In this document: piece by piece, positions 8,295 through 29,770 of the stretch | Numbering within the stretch: position 1 is the stretch's first letter | How the letters are laid out: each line of letters starts with the position of its first letter | Source of the DNA: Spirochaetales bacterium | GTDB lineage: Bacteria > Spirochaetota > Spirochaetia > Treponematales > UBA12059 | Assembly (NCBI GenBank): GCA_016926955.1 | Contig: JAFGNN010000011.1 | Coordinates: 1-48,405 of the forward strand | Length of the DNA: 48,405 nt | Reading direction: 5' to 3' | Position numbers and translations under genes: made by a program | The notes under the pieces: model-generated | What the model was told of the DNA's origin: nothing | What the model saw: only the letters and a program-made list of their open reading frames with translations | Databases searched by the model: none

Positions 8295-9014
8295 TTGAGC
8301 TTCGACAAAAACATGCGGACGATCCGCGTCGTCGCCCACCTCGCGCTCGCGGCGCTCGCCATAGCCGGCAGCGCAATCGAGATCGCCCTGCCCGTCGCCT
8401 GGTCGGATTCCGCGGGCATGCTCAGGTACTTCACCATACAGGCCAATTTCCTCGTGGCCGCCGTCTCGCTCGCCGAGGCCGCGCGCGCCGCCGCTGGACT
8501 CAGGCCGGGCCGCCTGCTTTCGCTCGCCCGCGGGATGGCCCTCATGGGCATCGCGCTCACCGGCCTCGTGTTCGGCCTCTTCCTCGCGCCCCTCTGGAGG
8601 CCGGCCGGCCTGCTCGGGGTGGCGAACGCCATCGTGCACGGATGGGTGCCGGTCCTCTCGTTCCTGGTCTGGGCTGCGCTCGACGCCAAGGGACGCTTCA
8701 GGCGGAGCGACGCCTTCGCGTGGACCCTGTTCCCGCTCGCCTATCTGGCGTGGTCGCTCGCGTACGGGGCGGCTTCGGGATTCTATCCCTACTGGTTCCT
8801 CGACCCGAGCTCGCCGCCTCCGGAGGGCATGGGTTCGGCCGCCGGCGTGGCGGCGTTCAGCGCGATCGCGTCGGCGCTCTACCTGGCCCTGGGCTTCGCG
8901 CTCGTCGCCGCGGACGGGGCGCTCGCCAGGGTGGAAGGCCCCGCGCTGGCGCGCTGGATCGCCGGCGCGTTCCGCTCCGTCTTCATGCAGGGCGGGGCGA
9001 AGGAGAGCGAATGA
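8295..9014 (+). CDS. Pr6Pr-family membrane protein (first of two)
   Basis: 239 residues, about six TM helices. The MLRYFTIQANFLVAA and GFYPYWFLDP motifs mark the Pr6Pr (FAR-17a/AIG1-like) family, whose members are putative membrane serine hydrolases or proteins of unknown role. I choose TTG 8295 because AGGG lies 7 nt upstream; ATG 8313 has no RBS. A longer reading to 8172 runs through the hairpins and is unlikely. It overlaps the second Pr6Pr gene by 4 bp (ATGA). The two paralogues share the two motifs but differ elsewhere, so the duplication is old. Confidence 0.8.
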   Translation: MSFDKNMRTIRVVAHLALAALAIAGSAIEIALPVAWSDSAGMLRYFTIQANFLVAAVSLAEAARAAAGLRPGRLLSLARGMALMGIALTGLVFGLFLAPLWRPAGLLGVANAIVHGWVPVLSFLVWAALDAKGRFRRSDAFAWTLFPLAYLAWSLAYGAASGFYPYWFLDPSSPPPEGMGSAAGVAAFSAIASALYLALGFALVAADGALARVEGPALARWIAGAFRSVFMQGGAKESE

Positions 9015-9682
9015 AATCCGCGACCCTCACAGCCGCCCGTCTGCTTGCCCACGCGCTCGTGATGGGCGTCGCGCTGGCGGGCGTGTACATCCTGGTCGGC
9101 AATCCCTTCGAGGGACAGGGCAAGGCGGGCATGCTCCGCTATTTCACCATACAGAGCAACCTGCTCGTGGCCGCGCTCGCGCTCGCAGAGTTCGCGTTGG
9201 TCGCCCTGGGCCGGATGCCGGGGCGGCGCTTCGCGCGCGCGCGCGGCTTCGGCCTCGTGGCCATCTCGCTGACCGGCTCGGCCTACGCGCTCTTCCTCGC
9301 GCGCGTCTGGAGCCCGACCGGCATGATGGCCGTGGGCGACACGCTGGCGCACTACGTCTCGCCGCTGGCCGCGCTCGCGATCTGGGCGCTCTTCTCGGAA
9401 AAAGGGAAGCTGCGGCTCCGGGACGCGGCGCTCTGGCTGGCCTATCCGGCCGCCTACCTGGTCTGGTCGCAGATCAACGGGGCGCTGACCGGCTTCTATC
9501 CGTACTGGTTCGTCAACCCGAAGCCCGCGCCCGAGGGACTCGGCTCCGCCTGGCTCGTGCTCGCCTTCGCCGCCGGCACCTGCGCCGTGCTCTGGCTGCT
9601 CGGCGCGGCCCTGGTCGGAATCGACCGCGCGCTCGCCCGAAAGCGGGGGAGCCGCGGCGCCTCCGTGGAGGGCTTGCGATGA
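9011..9682 (+). CDS. Pr6Pr-family membrane protein (second of two)
   Basis: 223 residues, about six TM helices, again with MLRYFTIQSNLLVAA near residues 38-52 and GFYPYWFVNP near 158. The start ATG overlaps the first copy's stop (ATGA) and its own stop overlaps the downstream Nudix start the same way, so all three are probably made from one transcript with coupled translation. The tail is basic (ARKRGSRG). Family biochemistry is poorly known; adjacent duplication suggests a heteromeric complex or divided substrates, which is inference. Confidence 0.82.
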   Translation: MKSATLTAARLLAHALVMGVALAGVYILVGNPFEGQGKAGMLRYFTIQSNLLVAALALAEFALVALGRMPGRRFARARGFGLVAISLTGSAYALFLARVWSPTGMMAVGDTLAHYVSPLAALAIWALFSEKGKLRLRDAALWLAYPAAYLVWSQINGALTGFYPYWFVNPKPAPEGLGSAWLVLAFAAGTCAVLWLLGAALVGIDRALARKRGSRGASVEGLR

Positions 9683-10242
9683 AGAATTCAGCCGGGGGGC
9701 TCGTGGAGCCGTTCCGTTTCGAGCTCGTGCGCGACGGGGGACTGGACCTCGCCTCGACGAGCCGCGTGACGCGCCGCGCCGCGCGCGCGGTGGTGGAGCG
9801 CGACGGCCGCTACCTGATGATCCGCTCGGAGAAACCGGGCGAAGGCGACTGGAAATTCCCGGGCGGCGGCATCGAGCCGGGCGAGTCCGAGGAGGAGGCC
9901 GTCGCGCGCGAGCTCGAGGAGGAAACCGGCTACCGCGCCGCGCGCGTCGGGCCGCTTCTCGGCAGGGCTACCGAGTTCAGGACGCCGAAGGAGGCGGGCT
10001 TCGAGCTCTTCGTCATGGAGTCCACGTACTGGCGCGTCGAGCTCGCCGCCGAAATGGGCGAGCGCCGGCTCGACCCCTACGAGGAGGAACTCGACTACCG
10101 CCCGCGCTGGGTCCGGCTCGAGGAAGCCATCGCGGCGAACCGCGAGCTCATGGAGTCGCCCGCGGGCGCGCGCATGCCCTGGGCGCGCCGCGAGACTCAG
10201 GTGATGGAACTGCTGCTCGCGGACGCGGAACGCGGGGCCTGA
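9679..10242 (+). CDS. Nudix hydrolase (second)
   Basis: 187 residues. The Nudix box lies at about 63-85 (GGIEPGESE, then RELEEETGY), preceded by WKFPGG. Unlike the gene at 7524 it has a short N-terminal arm and ends in a helical region. It overlaps the second Pr6Pr gene by 4 bp (ATGA). The mostly acidic protein carries FRTPKEAGFELFVMES, a strand that often lines the substrate pocket in MutT-like enzymes, but I cannot name the substrate. It is the last gene of the co-directional run. Confidence 0.86.
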   Translation: MKNSAGGLVEPFRFELVRDGGLDLASTSRVTRRAARAVVERDGRYLMIRSEKPGEGDWKFPGGGIEPGESEEEAVARELEEETGYRAARVGPLLGRATEFRTPKEAGFELFVMESTYWRVELAAEMGERRLDPYEEELDYRPRWVRLEEAIAANRELMESPAGARMPWARRETQVMELLLADAERGA

Positions 10243-27466: not shown

Positions 27467-28276
27467 CTAGTCCACAGACACGCCCGAGTCCGAGCGGAGC
27501 AGCGCGGCCAGCAAGGGTCTCGCGGCCGTCGCGCTCCGCCTGGCTTCGGCTTCCGCCTCGGCGGCCTTGGCGAACGCCTGCTCCGCGATCACCCGTACCT
27601 CGAAAAGGTCTTCGAGATCATCGCGCCAGCGGACTATCCGCGCGGCGTAGTCGAGGGTGCTCCGGGGCGTGCCGCCCTTGCCGACGCGGGTCAGGCCGGC
27701 ATTGTAGATGGCCAGGGCCGCGACCTCGTTCCCGCCCTTGTCGAGACAGAAGTCCAGGTGCGCCACGCCGAGCCGGATGTTCGTCGGGATGTCGTAGAAT
27801 TCGCCCGTGGCCAGCTTGGGAAAGCTCTTCGAGTTGAGCTGGAAGAGTCCCCTGTCGACGGAATCGGAGTTGCGGTTCAAGGCCCGCGGATTGAAGTGGC
27901 TTTCCTCCCAGGCGACGGCGAAGGCAAGTGCCGGCGGTACCTCGCGCTTCGCCGCTTCCTCGAGTATCAAGGCGGCGATCTGCGGCGATCCGGTCAGCTC
28001 GGCGAAGAATCCGTTCACGAGAGGGCGGGTGTCCGCAGAGGCGTACAGCTCCGCTATCCGGTCGCCCGCGTCGCGCTTTCCCAGTTTCTCGGCCATGCCG
28101 CGGGCGGGGAGGTCGGCGTAGCGCTCGTACATGTCCGGCACCCAGGCTTCGGCCGTGTCGGCGGCGGCGGTGTCCGGGCGATTCGAGAGGAGCAGGGCCA
28201 TCAGCATCGCCGCGGCGGCGATCGGCACAATGGGCGCGGGGTGGTGCAGTCGGGGCGGCTTCTTCTCCGTAGGCAT
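27467..28276 (-). CDS. Lytic transglycosylase-like (SLT) protein
   Basis: 269 residues. An N-terminal hydrophobic segment (about 17-32) anchors or exports it. The SLT domain starts near 95: VAWEESHFNPRAL with the catalytic Glu near 125, then DRGLFQLNSKSFP and AALAIYNAG, the usual goose-lysozyme/Slt70-type motifs; it cleaves the peptidoglycan glycan with 1,6-anhydro formation. A C-terminal coiled, Ala/Glu/Arg-rich tail (about 230-269) is unassigned. Promoter TTGACC-N16-TAAAAT lies upstream at 28347-28374, and stacked hairpins lie at its end. Confidence 0.88.
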   Translation of the reverse strand: MPTEKKPPRLHHPAPIVPIAAAAMLMALLLSNRPDTAAADTAEAWVPDMYERYADLPARGMAEKLGKRDAGDRIAELYASADTRPLVNGFFAELTGSPQIAALILEEAAKREVPPALAFAVAWEESHFNPRALNRNSDSVDRGLFQLNSKSFPKLATGEFYDIPTNIRLGVAHLDFCLDKGGNEVAALAIYNAGLTRVGKGGTPRSTLDYAARIVRWRDDLEDLFEVRVIAEQAFAKAAEAEAEARRSATAARPLLAALLRSDSGVSVD

Positions 28277-28346: not shown

Positions 28347-28374
28347 ATTTTATCCATTCCGTCCATATGGTCAA
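28347..28374 (-). promoter_or_regulatory. Promoter of the lytic transglycosylase gene
   Basis: Minus strand: TTGACC (28369-28374), 16-bp spacer, TAAAAT (28347-28352), about 70 bp before the ATG. This stretch is the most AT-rich in the surrounding kilobase. Confidence 0.75.
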
Positions 28375-28419
28375 GCCCCCAGCGCCGAGGCCGGGGATGG
28401 GACTAAGGAGGGGTGAATC

Positions 28420-29094
28420 ATGCCGGCCTTCGCTACCCGCTCGCTCCGACCCTCCCCTGGGGGCCGGCCCCCGAACGCGCACGGTCGGCATCTACGCTTG
28501 CGCAAGCCGGTCGGGATCCGCACCCTCATACCCGGTAAGCGACGGCAAGCCTTGAGCGTGACTGCGCAGGGCGGGTCCTGTCGAACGCAAGCACACCCCT
28601 ATCACTACCGTTCGGGGGCGCGCTTGCGTTCGCCGCCCGCCGTCCTTCCAAGGTCCGCGAGGCGCTTTGCCGGGTTCATTCCGCTGACGTCGCTTTCCGG
28701 GCCGCTCCCGGATGGCCGTAGACCCAAGGCGGTGCGCTTGACGCAGGCAGCTCCGTTGGCGGGTAGGGCTCGCATTACGTCACCCGCGGCTCCGGACGCT
28801 TCGCGGATCGGCGGAACCCGTCGCTTTTCCCCCACGCCGCCTTCGAGCCGCGAGGCGAGCGACGCGGCGGCTCCGCGATCGCCCGAGAAGGGCGCCCCTC
28901 CGTGGAAGCGGCGTGATAGCGCTCACCCGGCGCAGCGCCTCGCGGAAAACGGCAGGACGGCGCAGGCAACACCACCGCCCATGAAGGGCGCCCCTCCGTG
29001 GAAGCGGCGTGATAGCGCTCACCCGGCGCAGCGCCTCGCGGAAAACGGCAGGACGGCGGGTGACGCGCGGCAACGCGGCCCCGAATGTCAGTGA
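28420..29094 (+). CDS. Possible ORF with two in-frame 32-codon repeats (doubtful)
   Basis: 224 codons from an ATG with AAGGAGGG 7 nt upstream, a good ribosome site. The product would be Arg/Pro/Ala-rich, very basic, and contains two copies of KGAPPWKRRDSAHPAQRLAE because the 76-bp repeats are 96 bp apart and so remain in frame. No domain is recognised. The minus strand carries a related repeat peptide, so the repeat may be what is conserved, not a protein. I would treat it as non-coding unless expression is shown. Confidence 0.25.
   Translation: MPAFATRSLRPSPGGRPPNAHGRHLRLRKPVGIRTLIPGKRRQALSVTAQGGSCRTQAHPYHYRSGARLRSPPAVLPRSARRFAGFIPLTSLSGPLPDGRRPKAVRLTQAAPLAGRARITSPAAPDASRIGGTRRFSPTPPSSREASDAAAPRSPEKGAPPWKRRDSAHPAQRLAENGRTAQATPPPMKGAPPWKRRDSAHPAQRLAENGRTAGDARQRGPECQ
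28446..28507. ncRNA. Candidate structured RNA or DNA element
   Basis: CCGACC pairs with GGTCGG (28446-28451 with 28483-28488) around the 14-bp palindrome at 28459-28472; a 12-bp palindrome follows at 28496-28507. The close packing of three perfect helices is more than chance would give in a short stretch, though high GC raises the background. No known RNA family recognised. Confidence 0.25.
28636..28675 (-). repeat. Inverted copy of the 76-bp repeat core
   Basis: Read on the minus strand it gives ACCCGGC, AGCGCCTCGCGGA and AGGACGGCGGG in the same order as the copies at 28925-28962 and 29021-29060. It can pair with either direct copy to form a long hairpin. Confidence 0.7.
28887..28962 (+). 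repeat. 76-bp direct repeat, copy 1
   Basis: Identical over 76 bp to 28983-29058, with a 20-bp spacer between the two. Starts GAAGGGCGCCCCTCCG and ends GGCAGGACGGCG. The exact identity suggests recent duplication or selection. Confidence 0.92.
28983..29058 (+). repeat. 76-bp direct repeat, copy 2
   Basis: Second exact copy. It continues directly into the stem TGACGCGCGGCAAC/GTTGCCGCGTGTCA at 29061-29116. Confidence 0.92.
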
Positions 29095-29116
29095 GGGGTT
29101 GTGTTGCCGCGTGTCA
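29061..29116 (+). terminator. Long stem-loop at the end of the repeat region
   Basis: TGACGCGCGGCAAC (29061-29074) pairs with GTTGCCGCGTGTCA (29103-29116), one mismatch in 14. It separates the repeat region from the promoter of the HD gene. No strong T-run follows. Confidence 0.5.
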
Positions 29117-29163
29117 GGCCCTGCCCTGCAAGGTTTCTATGACGCCCGACGCCGCGCATGCGT

Positions 29164-29169
29164 TATACT
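29164..29169 (+). promoter_or_regulatory. -10 box for the HD-domain gene
   Basis: TATACT, with GAGGAGG at 29185-29191 and the ATG at 29198. No good -35 box. Confidence 0.5.
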
Positions 29170-29197: not shown

Positions 29198-29770
29198 ATG
29201 AAGGAACGTGACCGCGATGCCGCCATCGCCCTGTGGCGCGAGCACAACGATGACGAGTCGCTCTTTCGCCACGCCCTGTCGGTGGAGGCCTGCATGCGGC
29301 ACTTCGCCCGCAAGGCTGGCGAGGACGAGGACTACTGGGGCTGCGTGGGGCTCCTCCACGACGTCGATTACGGATGCCACCCGGAGGAGCACCTCAAGGT
29401 CGCGCCGGGCCTGCTCGAGGGCGCGGGCTACGGTCCGGCTTTCGTGCGCGCGGTGCTCGCCCACGGCTGGGGGCTCTGCGCCGACGTGGAACCCGTCGCG
29501 CATATGGAAAAGGTCCTCTATGCGGTGGACGAGCTCACGGGCTTCGTGGCCGCCTGCTGCTACGTCCGCCCCTCGCGGAGCGTGCTTGACCTCGAGGTGT
29601 CGTCGGTGAAGAAGAAGTGGAAGACGGCCGCCTTCGCGGCGGGCGTCAACCGGGAGGTCGTGACCAAGGGCGCCGGCCTGCTCGGCATGGAGCTCGACGC
29701 GCTCGTCGCCGAGGTCATCGCCGCGCTGCGGCCCGTCGCCGCGGAGACGGGCCTCAAGGGGACCCTGTAG
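29198..29770 (+). CDS. HD-domain phosphohydrolase-like protein
   Basis: 190 residues. The HD motif is complete: His25 (FRHALSVE), His54-Asp55 (LLHDVDYG), a further His in AVLAHGWG near 88 and an Asp in YAVDELTGF near 112. The order H...HD...H...D is the metal-dependent phosphohydrolase pattern. Members act on nucleotides or other phosphoesters; no specificity here. It has RBS GAGGAGG 6 nt upstream of the ATG. The stop overlaps the opposite-strand GGDEF gene by 17 bp; both may be nucleotide-signalling related, but that is inference. Confidence 0.85.
   Translation: MKERDRDAAIALWREHNDDESLFRHALSVEACMRHFARKAGEDEDYWGCVGLLHDVDYGCHPEEHLKVAPGLLEGAGYGPAFVRAVLAHGWGLCADVEPVAHMEKVLYAVDELTGFVAACCYVRPSRSVLDLEVSSVKKKWKTAAFAAGVNREVVTKGAGLLGMELDALVAEVIAALRPVAAETGLKGTL

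Follow-up and report, generated by a model that had tools for sequence, protein, structure and literature searches.

A dispersed family of hairpin-forming repeats of the REP/MITE type in a genome of the Spirochaetales

REPINs and BIMEs, inverted pairs of REP palindromes known from Pseudomonas and E. coli, are among the known systems closest to the repeats that we report here (PMC3116915, PMC3733652). REPs have been described close to the 3' ends of open reading frames (PMC3733652), and REPINs as hairpins with compensatory changes in their spacer (PMC3116915). The REPs that carry a terminal CGTC tag have stems of 8-9 bp and loops of 4-5 nt; no dedicated transposase is known for them, and they have been reported in five phyla, including the Spirochaetes (PMC3733652). 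Finally, ERIC/RU-1 and RU-2 are enterobacterial intergenic repeat units of 127 and 168 bp, described as MITE-like (PMC2759123).

The window, that is, the whole stretch of 48,405 nucleotides that was analysed, holds repeats of a comparable kind between positions 28375 and 29163. They belong to a family that is real, non-coding, of REP/MITE type, and not a gene. It is also previously unlisted, with no Rfam match and no description found in the literature searched. Like REPINs and BIMEs, its members are dispersed, intergenic and palindromic, they sit near the 3' ends of genes, they cluster in tandem and in inverted order, and they have conserved ends around a variable hairpin with compensatory spacer changes. 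Unlike them, the unit is 154 nt long with an asymmetric 5' domain, shows no GTAG tag and no association with RAYT, often occupies sites common to several species, and has hairpins that were apparently exchanged between sites. ERIC/RU-1 and RU-2 are also intergenic, multi-copy and of similar length, but they differ in lineage, sequence and core (here CGGGTG/CAGGnCCCG), ERIC being set apart by its description. The CGTC-tagged REPs share with the family the status of palindromic repeats without a known dedicated transposase; here, however, the units measure 154 nt and their stem exceeds 20 bp, and CGTC occurs inside the unit and is not fully conserved.

The stretch is bounded by a lytic transglycosylase gene (27467-28276, minus strand; Pfam SLT) and by an HD-domain gene that starts at 29198 on the plus strand. 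Its parts are as follows.

29004-29156, plus strand: complete unit of 153 nt (158.4 bits by cmsearch against the family model R1, covering model positions 1-154; this unit and the next are among the 28 training sequences of R1, so that their scores are not independent tests)
28538-28693, minus strand: second full-length unit (cmsearch R1, 130.5 bits, full length)
28908-29000, plus strand: half unit, 5' domain only (cmsearch R1, 43.4 bits; direct repeat D1)
29065-29112 (approximate limits), plus strand: apical loop and variable inner stem of the hairpin in the plus-strand unit (consensus fold, pair counts on 28, 84, 21 and 19 copies)
28390-28864, no strand: segment with the inverted unit (three-way locus comparison and pairwise counts)
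28420-29094, plus strand: 224-aa open frame across the repeats, judged not to be a gene (Pfam search, codon-position counts against the sister species G002)

The plus-strand unit opens with GCGGCGTG and closes with CGCCGCG, with its downstream end 41 bp ahead of the HD-domain gene. It makes a long hairpin, which is the strong terminal hairpin of the stretch. The two full units are inverted with respect to each other, in a divergent arrangement with a spacing of 310 bp, and the half unit stands in tandem with the plus-strand unit, with a period of about 96 bp. Half-unit duplications of a similar kind are present at other loci too. The first-pass annotation of the window had singled out this stretch of about 790 bp, without a sure gene and exceptionally rich in symmetry, as the best candidate for an undescribed element or RNA. 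Of the individual motifs that it listed, these are there: a 76-bp exact direct duplication (28887-28962 and 28983-29058), which exists because the half unit is in tandem with the full one; two perfect palindromes, GGGGGCCGGCCCCC (28459-28472) and GCTTGCGCAAGC (28496-28507); an 11-bp inverted repeat, CGAACGCAAGC (28582-28592 and 28622-28632); and an inverted partial copy, 28602-28675 against 29021-29094, with 76% complementarity. 'Exceptional' was in part too strong a word. Exact stems of at least 11 bp are indeed commoner here than in the average tile (2 against a mean of 0.26), but values of 2-3 are found in a few further tiles of the window, and the two palindromes do not by themselves stand out, 0.7 being expected at the density of the window. 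That the stretch is an undescribed non-coding element agrees with its structured repeat, with the lack of an Rfam match and with the lack of a protein signal in the 224-aa frame, and no remnant of a known transposon was found inside it; the checks that the first-pass annotation had named as able to refute it thus came out negative. The stretch is made up, however, of two complete members and one half member of a dispersed family, rather than of one 790-bp element.

The main signal is a structure that recurs tens of times genome-wide, beyond what the window alone could show. The first-pass annotation had proposed a search for copies elsewhere, and these were found both in the same genome and in related genera. 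In its own genome, the stretch has 51 BLAST matches. When aligned with those of two sister species, the matches share sharp ends that define a unit of about 154 nt, starting with GCGGCGTG and ending with CGCCGC. A covariance model, R1, was built from 28 units, and by its cmsearch hits the own genome contains about 40 full-length copies, many of them outside the training set. The sister species G001 and G002 have similar numbers, tens of units per genome. Weaker but full-length members are present in two further genera of the family (g3 and g7), and six genera of a second family of the same order also have full-length members, one of them at 121.5 bits. Beyond these two families, a phylum-wide sample of 296 genomes gave no units under strict filters. 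There was no match among 50,697 phage and 72,556 plasmid records, and no unit by exact pattern in viral contigs; an origin from phages or plasmids was ruled out on this ground. As for known RNAs, no Rfam 15 family reached its gathering score for the stretch or the unit, the two sub-threshold matches (mir-3180 and sX13) were at chance level, which led us to reject a known RNA family, and no tRNA or tmRNA was found in the stretch.

RNAalifold and pair counts concur in making each unit one long hairpin, with the pairing kept across copies, which is what the folding and covariance analysis suggested by the first-pass annotation has brought to light. The closing stem, GCGGCG/CGCCGC, is formed in 98% of cells over 84 copies. 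It is followed by a conserved core, GGCGGGTG opposite CAGGnCCCGCC, in which three bases bulge out on the 3' side; the part CGGGTG/CAGGnCCCG is common to all copy sets, from the own genus, from other genera and from the second family. Further in, the inner stem differs in sequence between copies while its pairing is maintained. The unit may therefore be described as conserved inverted ends, GCGGCG...GGCGGG-TG and the near-mirror CA-GGn-CCCGCC...CGCCGC, that flank an interchangeable hairpin. In the 28 copies 96.0% of pair cells are paired, and 124 cells show a double change, against 32.8 after shuffling. For 84 copies from two species the figures are 94.4% standard pairs and 425 double-change cells, against 108 after shuffling and 31-78 with the partner strand shifted along. 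The 21 copies of two other genera (91.2% paired, 134 double-change cells against 46) and the 19 copies of the second family (92.4%, 141 against 40) lie outside the training set, though the model was used to align them.

The two strands are not equivalent. G.U pairs are fixed at particular positions (at one of them in 64 of 84 copies) and A.C mismatches are fewer, which means that one strand folds better; the plus-strand fold is indeed the more stable in 65 of the 84. GNRA is a common RNA tetraloop, and stable DNA loops of the cGNNAg type are also known. Among the 28 copies with the strict apex GA-X-C-GNNA-G-X-GA, the third base of the loop is a pyrimidine in 25, which excludes a GNRA loop there. 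Outside the unit, the immediate flanks are often complementary to each other, with a score of at least 9 in 52% of cases against 11% for flanks taken from different units, so that a longer inverted repeat encloses many of the units.

Nearly all copies are intergenic in both species. Their placement was counted on 73 units with called genes on both sides, the calls being those of a simple codon-usage caller; many of the sites are common to the two species, which makes the counts partly dependent on each other. At least one neighbouring gene turns its 3' end to the unit in 64 of the 73; convergent pairs flank 32 and divergent pairs 9, and 26% of comparable gaps are convergent. It is the 3' end of the unit that is the nearer to a gene in 68 of the 73, typically about 35 bp from the neighbour's stop codon (median 33 bp for convergent pairs). 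In most cases the gene in question lies on the opposite strand and turns its stop codon to the unit. The nearness of the 3' end was not reproduced in the smaller set from G004 and G008 (10 of 18). Units often run into a short T-rich stretch, T being found at positions +1, +2 and +3 in 51, 65 and 47% of cases. A link with the direction of replication was considered: local GC skew matched the strand of the unit in 58 of 84 copies, but the contigs have no large-scale skew, and the claim was dropped.

Two other kinds of repeat were seen along with the units. Some units (L122, L123, L150, L153 and L154 in the own genome, G000; L131, L133, L134 and L140 in G001) have the outer arms CGGGAAGCGCG/CGCGCTTCCCG in common, along with more extended surroundings, and look as if larger composite repeats carried the unit. 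A second REP-like repeat, a double hairpin of the form CGACCGCC..GGCGGTCGCGGCGACGAAGCCG..GAACGGCTTCGTCGA, occurs in several of the same intergenic regions (L119, L112, L111, L121) and in one instance seems to lie in the apex of a unit (L140:12199-12413).

When species are compared site by site, inheritance of the site can be told apart from replacement of the hairpin. For 29 of the 40 copies of the own genome, G001 has a unit at the syntenic position; such partners are 66-99% identical, often less so than the genes that flank them. Changes in the stem of syntenic pairs are mostly double: 130 pair cells have both sides changed and the pair kept, against 40 with one side changed and 85 broken. 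The hairpins of positional partners are either near-identical (0.93-1.0) or quite different. Of 28 syntenic pairs, 19 have an own-genome hairpin whose nearest match is a copy at some other site and not the positional partner, a count in which moderate values could arise by chance, as the best match is chosen from about 80 copies. The striking cases, about 11 of the 28, have similarities of 0.88-1.0 to a copy elsewhere against 0.38-0.80 to the partner; some of the closest copies share larger repeated surroundings, and these figures are therefore not a count of independent exchanges. Because hairpins match copies at other sites, the covariation is partly exchange of whole hairpins rather than stepwise compensation. 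Exchanged or diverged, they are all still paired: the fold is what is kept.

At the locus of the window, the segment 28390-28864 is 94% identical in G002, where the neighbouring genes are at 81-90%, and 28540-28740 is almost unchanged. G001 is without the segment at the same site. Its ends are short similar sequences, GCGCCGAGG and GCGACGCGGCGG, and its presence or absence could equally be the outcome of an insertion or of a deletion between short direct repeats. This ambiguous case is the sole presence/absence locus, and no clean empty site with a target duplication was found.

With moderate confidence, we read the region as two copies and a half copy of a dispersed family of non-coding hairpins of about 154 nt, REPIN/MITE-like, that behaves as a non-autonomous DNA element. 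It shares with MITEs a short (100-400 bp) non-coding sequence with terminal inverted repeats in many copies, and with REPs and REPINs the nature of high-copy intergenic palindromes with hairpin potential. Among the loci examined, no pair of unit ends flanks a transposase gene that could be the autonomous partner. The copies would originally have spread as DNA, probably via a folded single strand acted upon in trans by an enzyme, and would now be mostly fixed and inherited in place. Selection for the fold, together with recombination between copies, may keep the hairpins paired. Their placement just after stop codons might come from a target preference, terminator-like hairpins being the target, or from insertions that were tolerated there. 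The mobilizing step, as well as any cellular function of the family, is something that we infer. What makes the case worth following is a structured family present in two families of one order, with very strongly conserved pairing and a mover that co-occurrence tests did not find: how REP-like palindromes spread and remain paired becomes a question that can be tested in a new lineage.

The conserved G.U pairs and the more stable plus strand are a counterpoint to the reading as a DNA element, as they would also fit a function in RNA. The chief rival is thus a structured RNA element of 3' untranslated regions (a bidirectional terminator, an RNase III processing site or an mRNA stabilizer), kept for its effect on the flanking genes and repeated by duplication, with selection acting on RNA. 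We hold this to be possible, if rather unlikely. The position beside the 3' ends of genes, often between convergent ones, the strong fold, the sites common to several species and the short T-rich stretch at the end of many units all suit it well. Against it stand the 25 of 28 strict-apex copies with a pyrimidine where GNRA would have a purine, the better-folding strand, which is mostly antisense to the nearer gene, the patchy spread across the two families, the hairpins common to sites that do not correspond, and the lack of an Rfam match.

A more doubtful proposal takes the exchange of hairpins as the essence of the system. Each site would keep a fixed docking frame, made of the 5' and 3' domains, while hairpin modules would be swapped between sites and between species by single-strand recombination involving neither RAYT nor an integron. 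If true, this would be a new kind of mobile palindromic element, the exchangeable unit being the hairpin itself.

Returning to enzymes already described, the units could be true REPs or REPINs moved by a Y1 transposase of the RAYT type, which we think improbable. Y1_Tnp genes are present in G000 (3), G001 (6) and G002 (3), and one unit of the own genome (L114:4902-5056) lies shortly past a RAYT-like pseudogene, the G001 unit at the same site following a Y1 gene. Yet G004, at 95% completeness, has 15 units and no Y1_Tnp, while G009, G010 and G015 have 4-5 Y1 genes and no units, and in the own genome no unit lies close to the Y1 genes. In the alignments the unit ends are GCGGCG/CGCCGC, with no conserved GTAG-like tag. 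Several Y1 genes carry instead GGGACAGA repeats, resembling the GGGGWSAS motif of tyrosine transposases flanked by terminal inverted repeats (PMC3733652). These repeats were seen near RAYT-like Y1 genes at L169, L170, L179 and L180, and recur in tandem at L193:10415-10470.

It is very unlikely that the units are dispersed attC-like recombination sites, used by IntI as folded bottom strands, despite several points of likeness with integron attC: an imperfect palindrome with one preferred folding strand, a variable terminal structure, and the same polarity to the nearer gene, whose stop is followed by a short gap and then by the unit on the opposite strand. An integron integrase scores above the family cut-off in G000, G001, G004 and G008, and a GAGCGTTAGCGA apex recurs in an attC-like site that belongs to a cassette array of the own genome. 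We set this reading aside, as integrase and units do not co-occur across genomes: beside these four unit-bearing genomes, five of the second family that also bear units (G025, G041, G056, G059 and G080) gave no IntI match. Moreover, units have a conserved sequence core and are mostly single and scattered, outside cassette arrays, and the array repeats of the own genome (L192:26-75 and 644-693) differ from them in sequence. The region L192:1-750 (G000:C27), with these repeats and AT-rich open reading frames, is probably part of an integron cassette array; an integron integrase is on the same contig, at 8906-9850.

An ordinary, low-complexity protein gene, for which the uninterrupted frame 28420-29094 might speak, can be rejected with near certainty: the 224-aa product has no Pfam match, substitutions against the G002 copy are spread 11/6/9 over the codon positions along 445 bp, with no bias where the neighbouring real genes are strongly biased, and the frame crosses both an inverted and a direct copy of the non-coding repeat.

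Possible signals for the flanking genes were noted at both edges of the stretch. A -10-like box, TATACT (29164-29169), is found 8 bp beyond the plus-strand unit, just upstream of the HD-domain gene, and is kept in both sister species; its -35 region would lie within the 3' end of the unit (29138-29169 for the whole). On the other side, a promoter-like pair, TTGACC and TAAAAT separated by 16 bp (28347-28374, minus strand), precedes the transglycosylase gene, in surroundings that are near-invariant in all three species.
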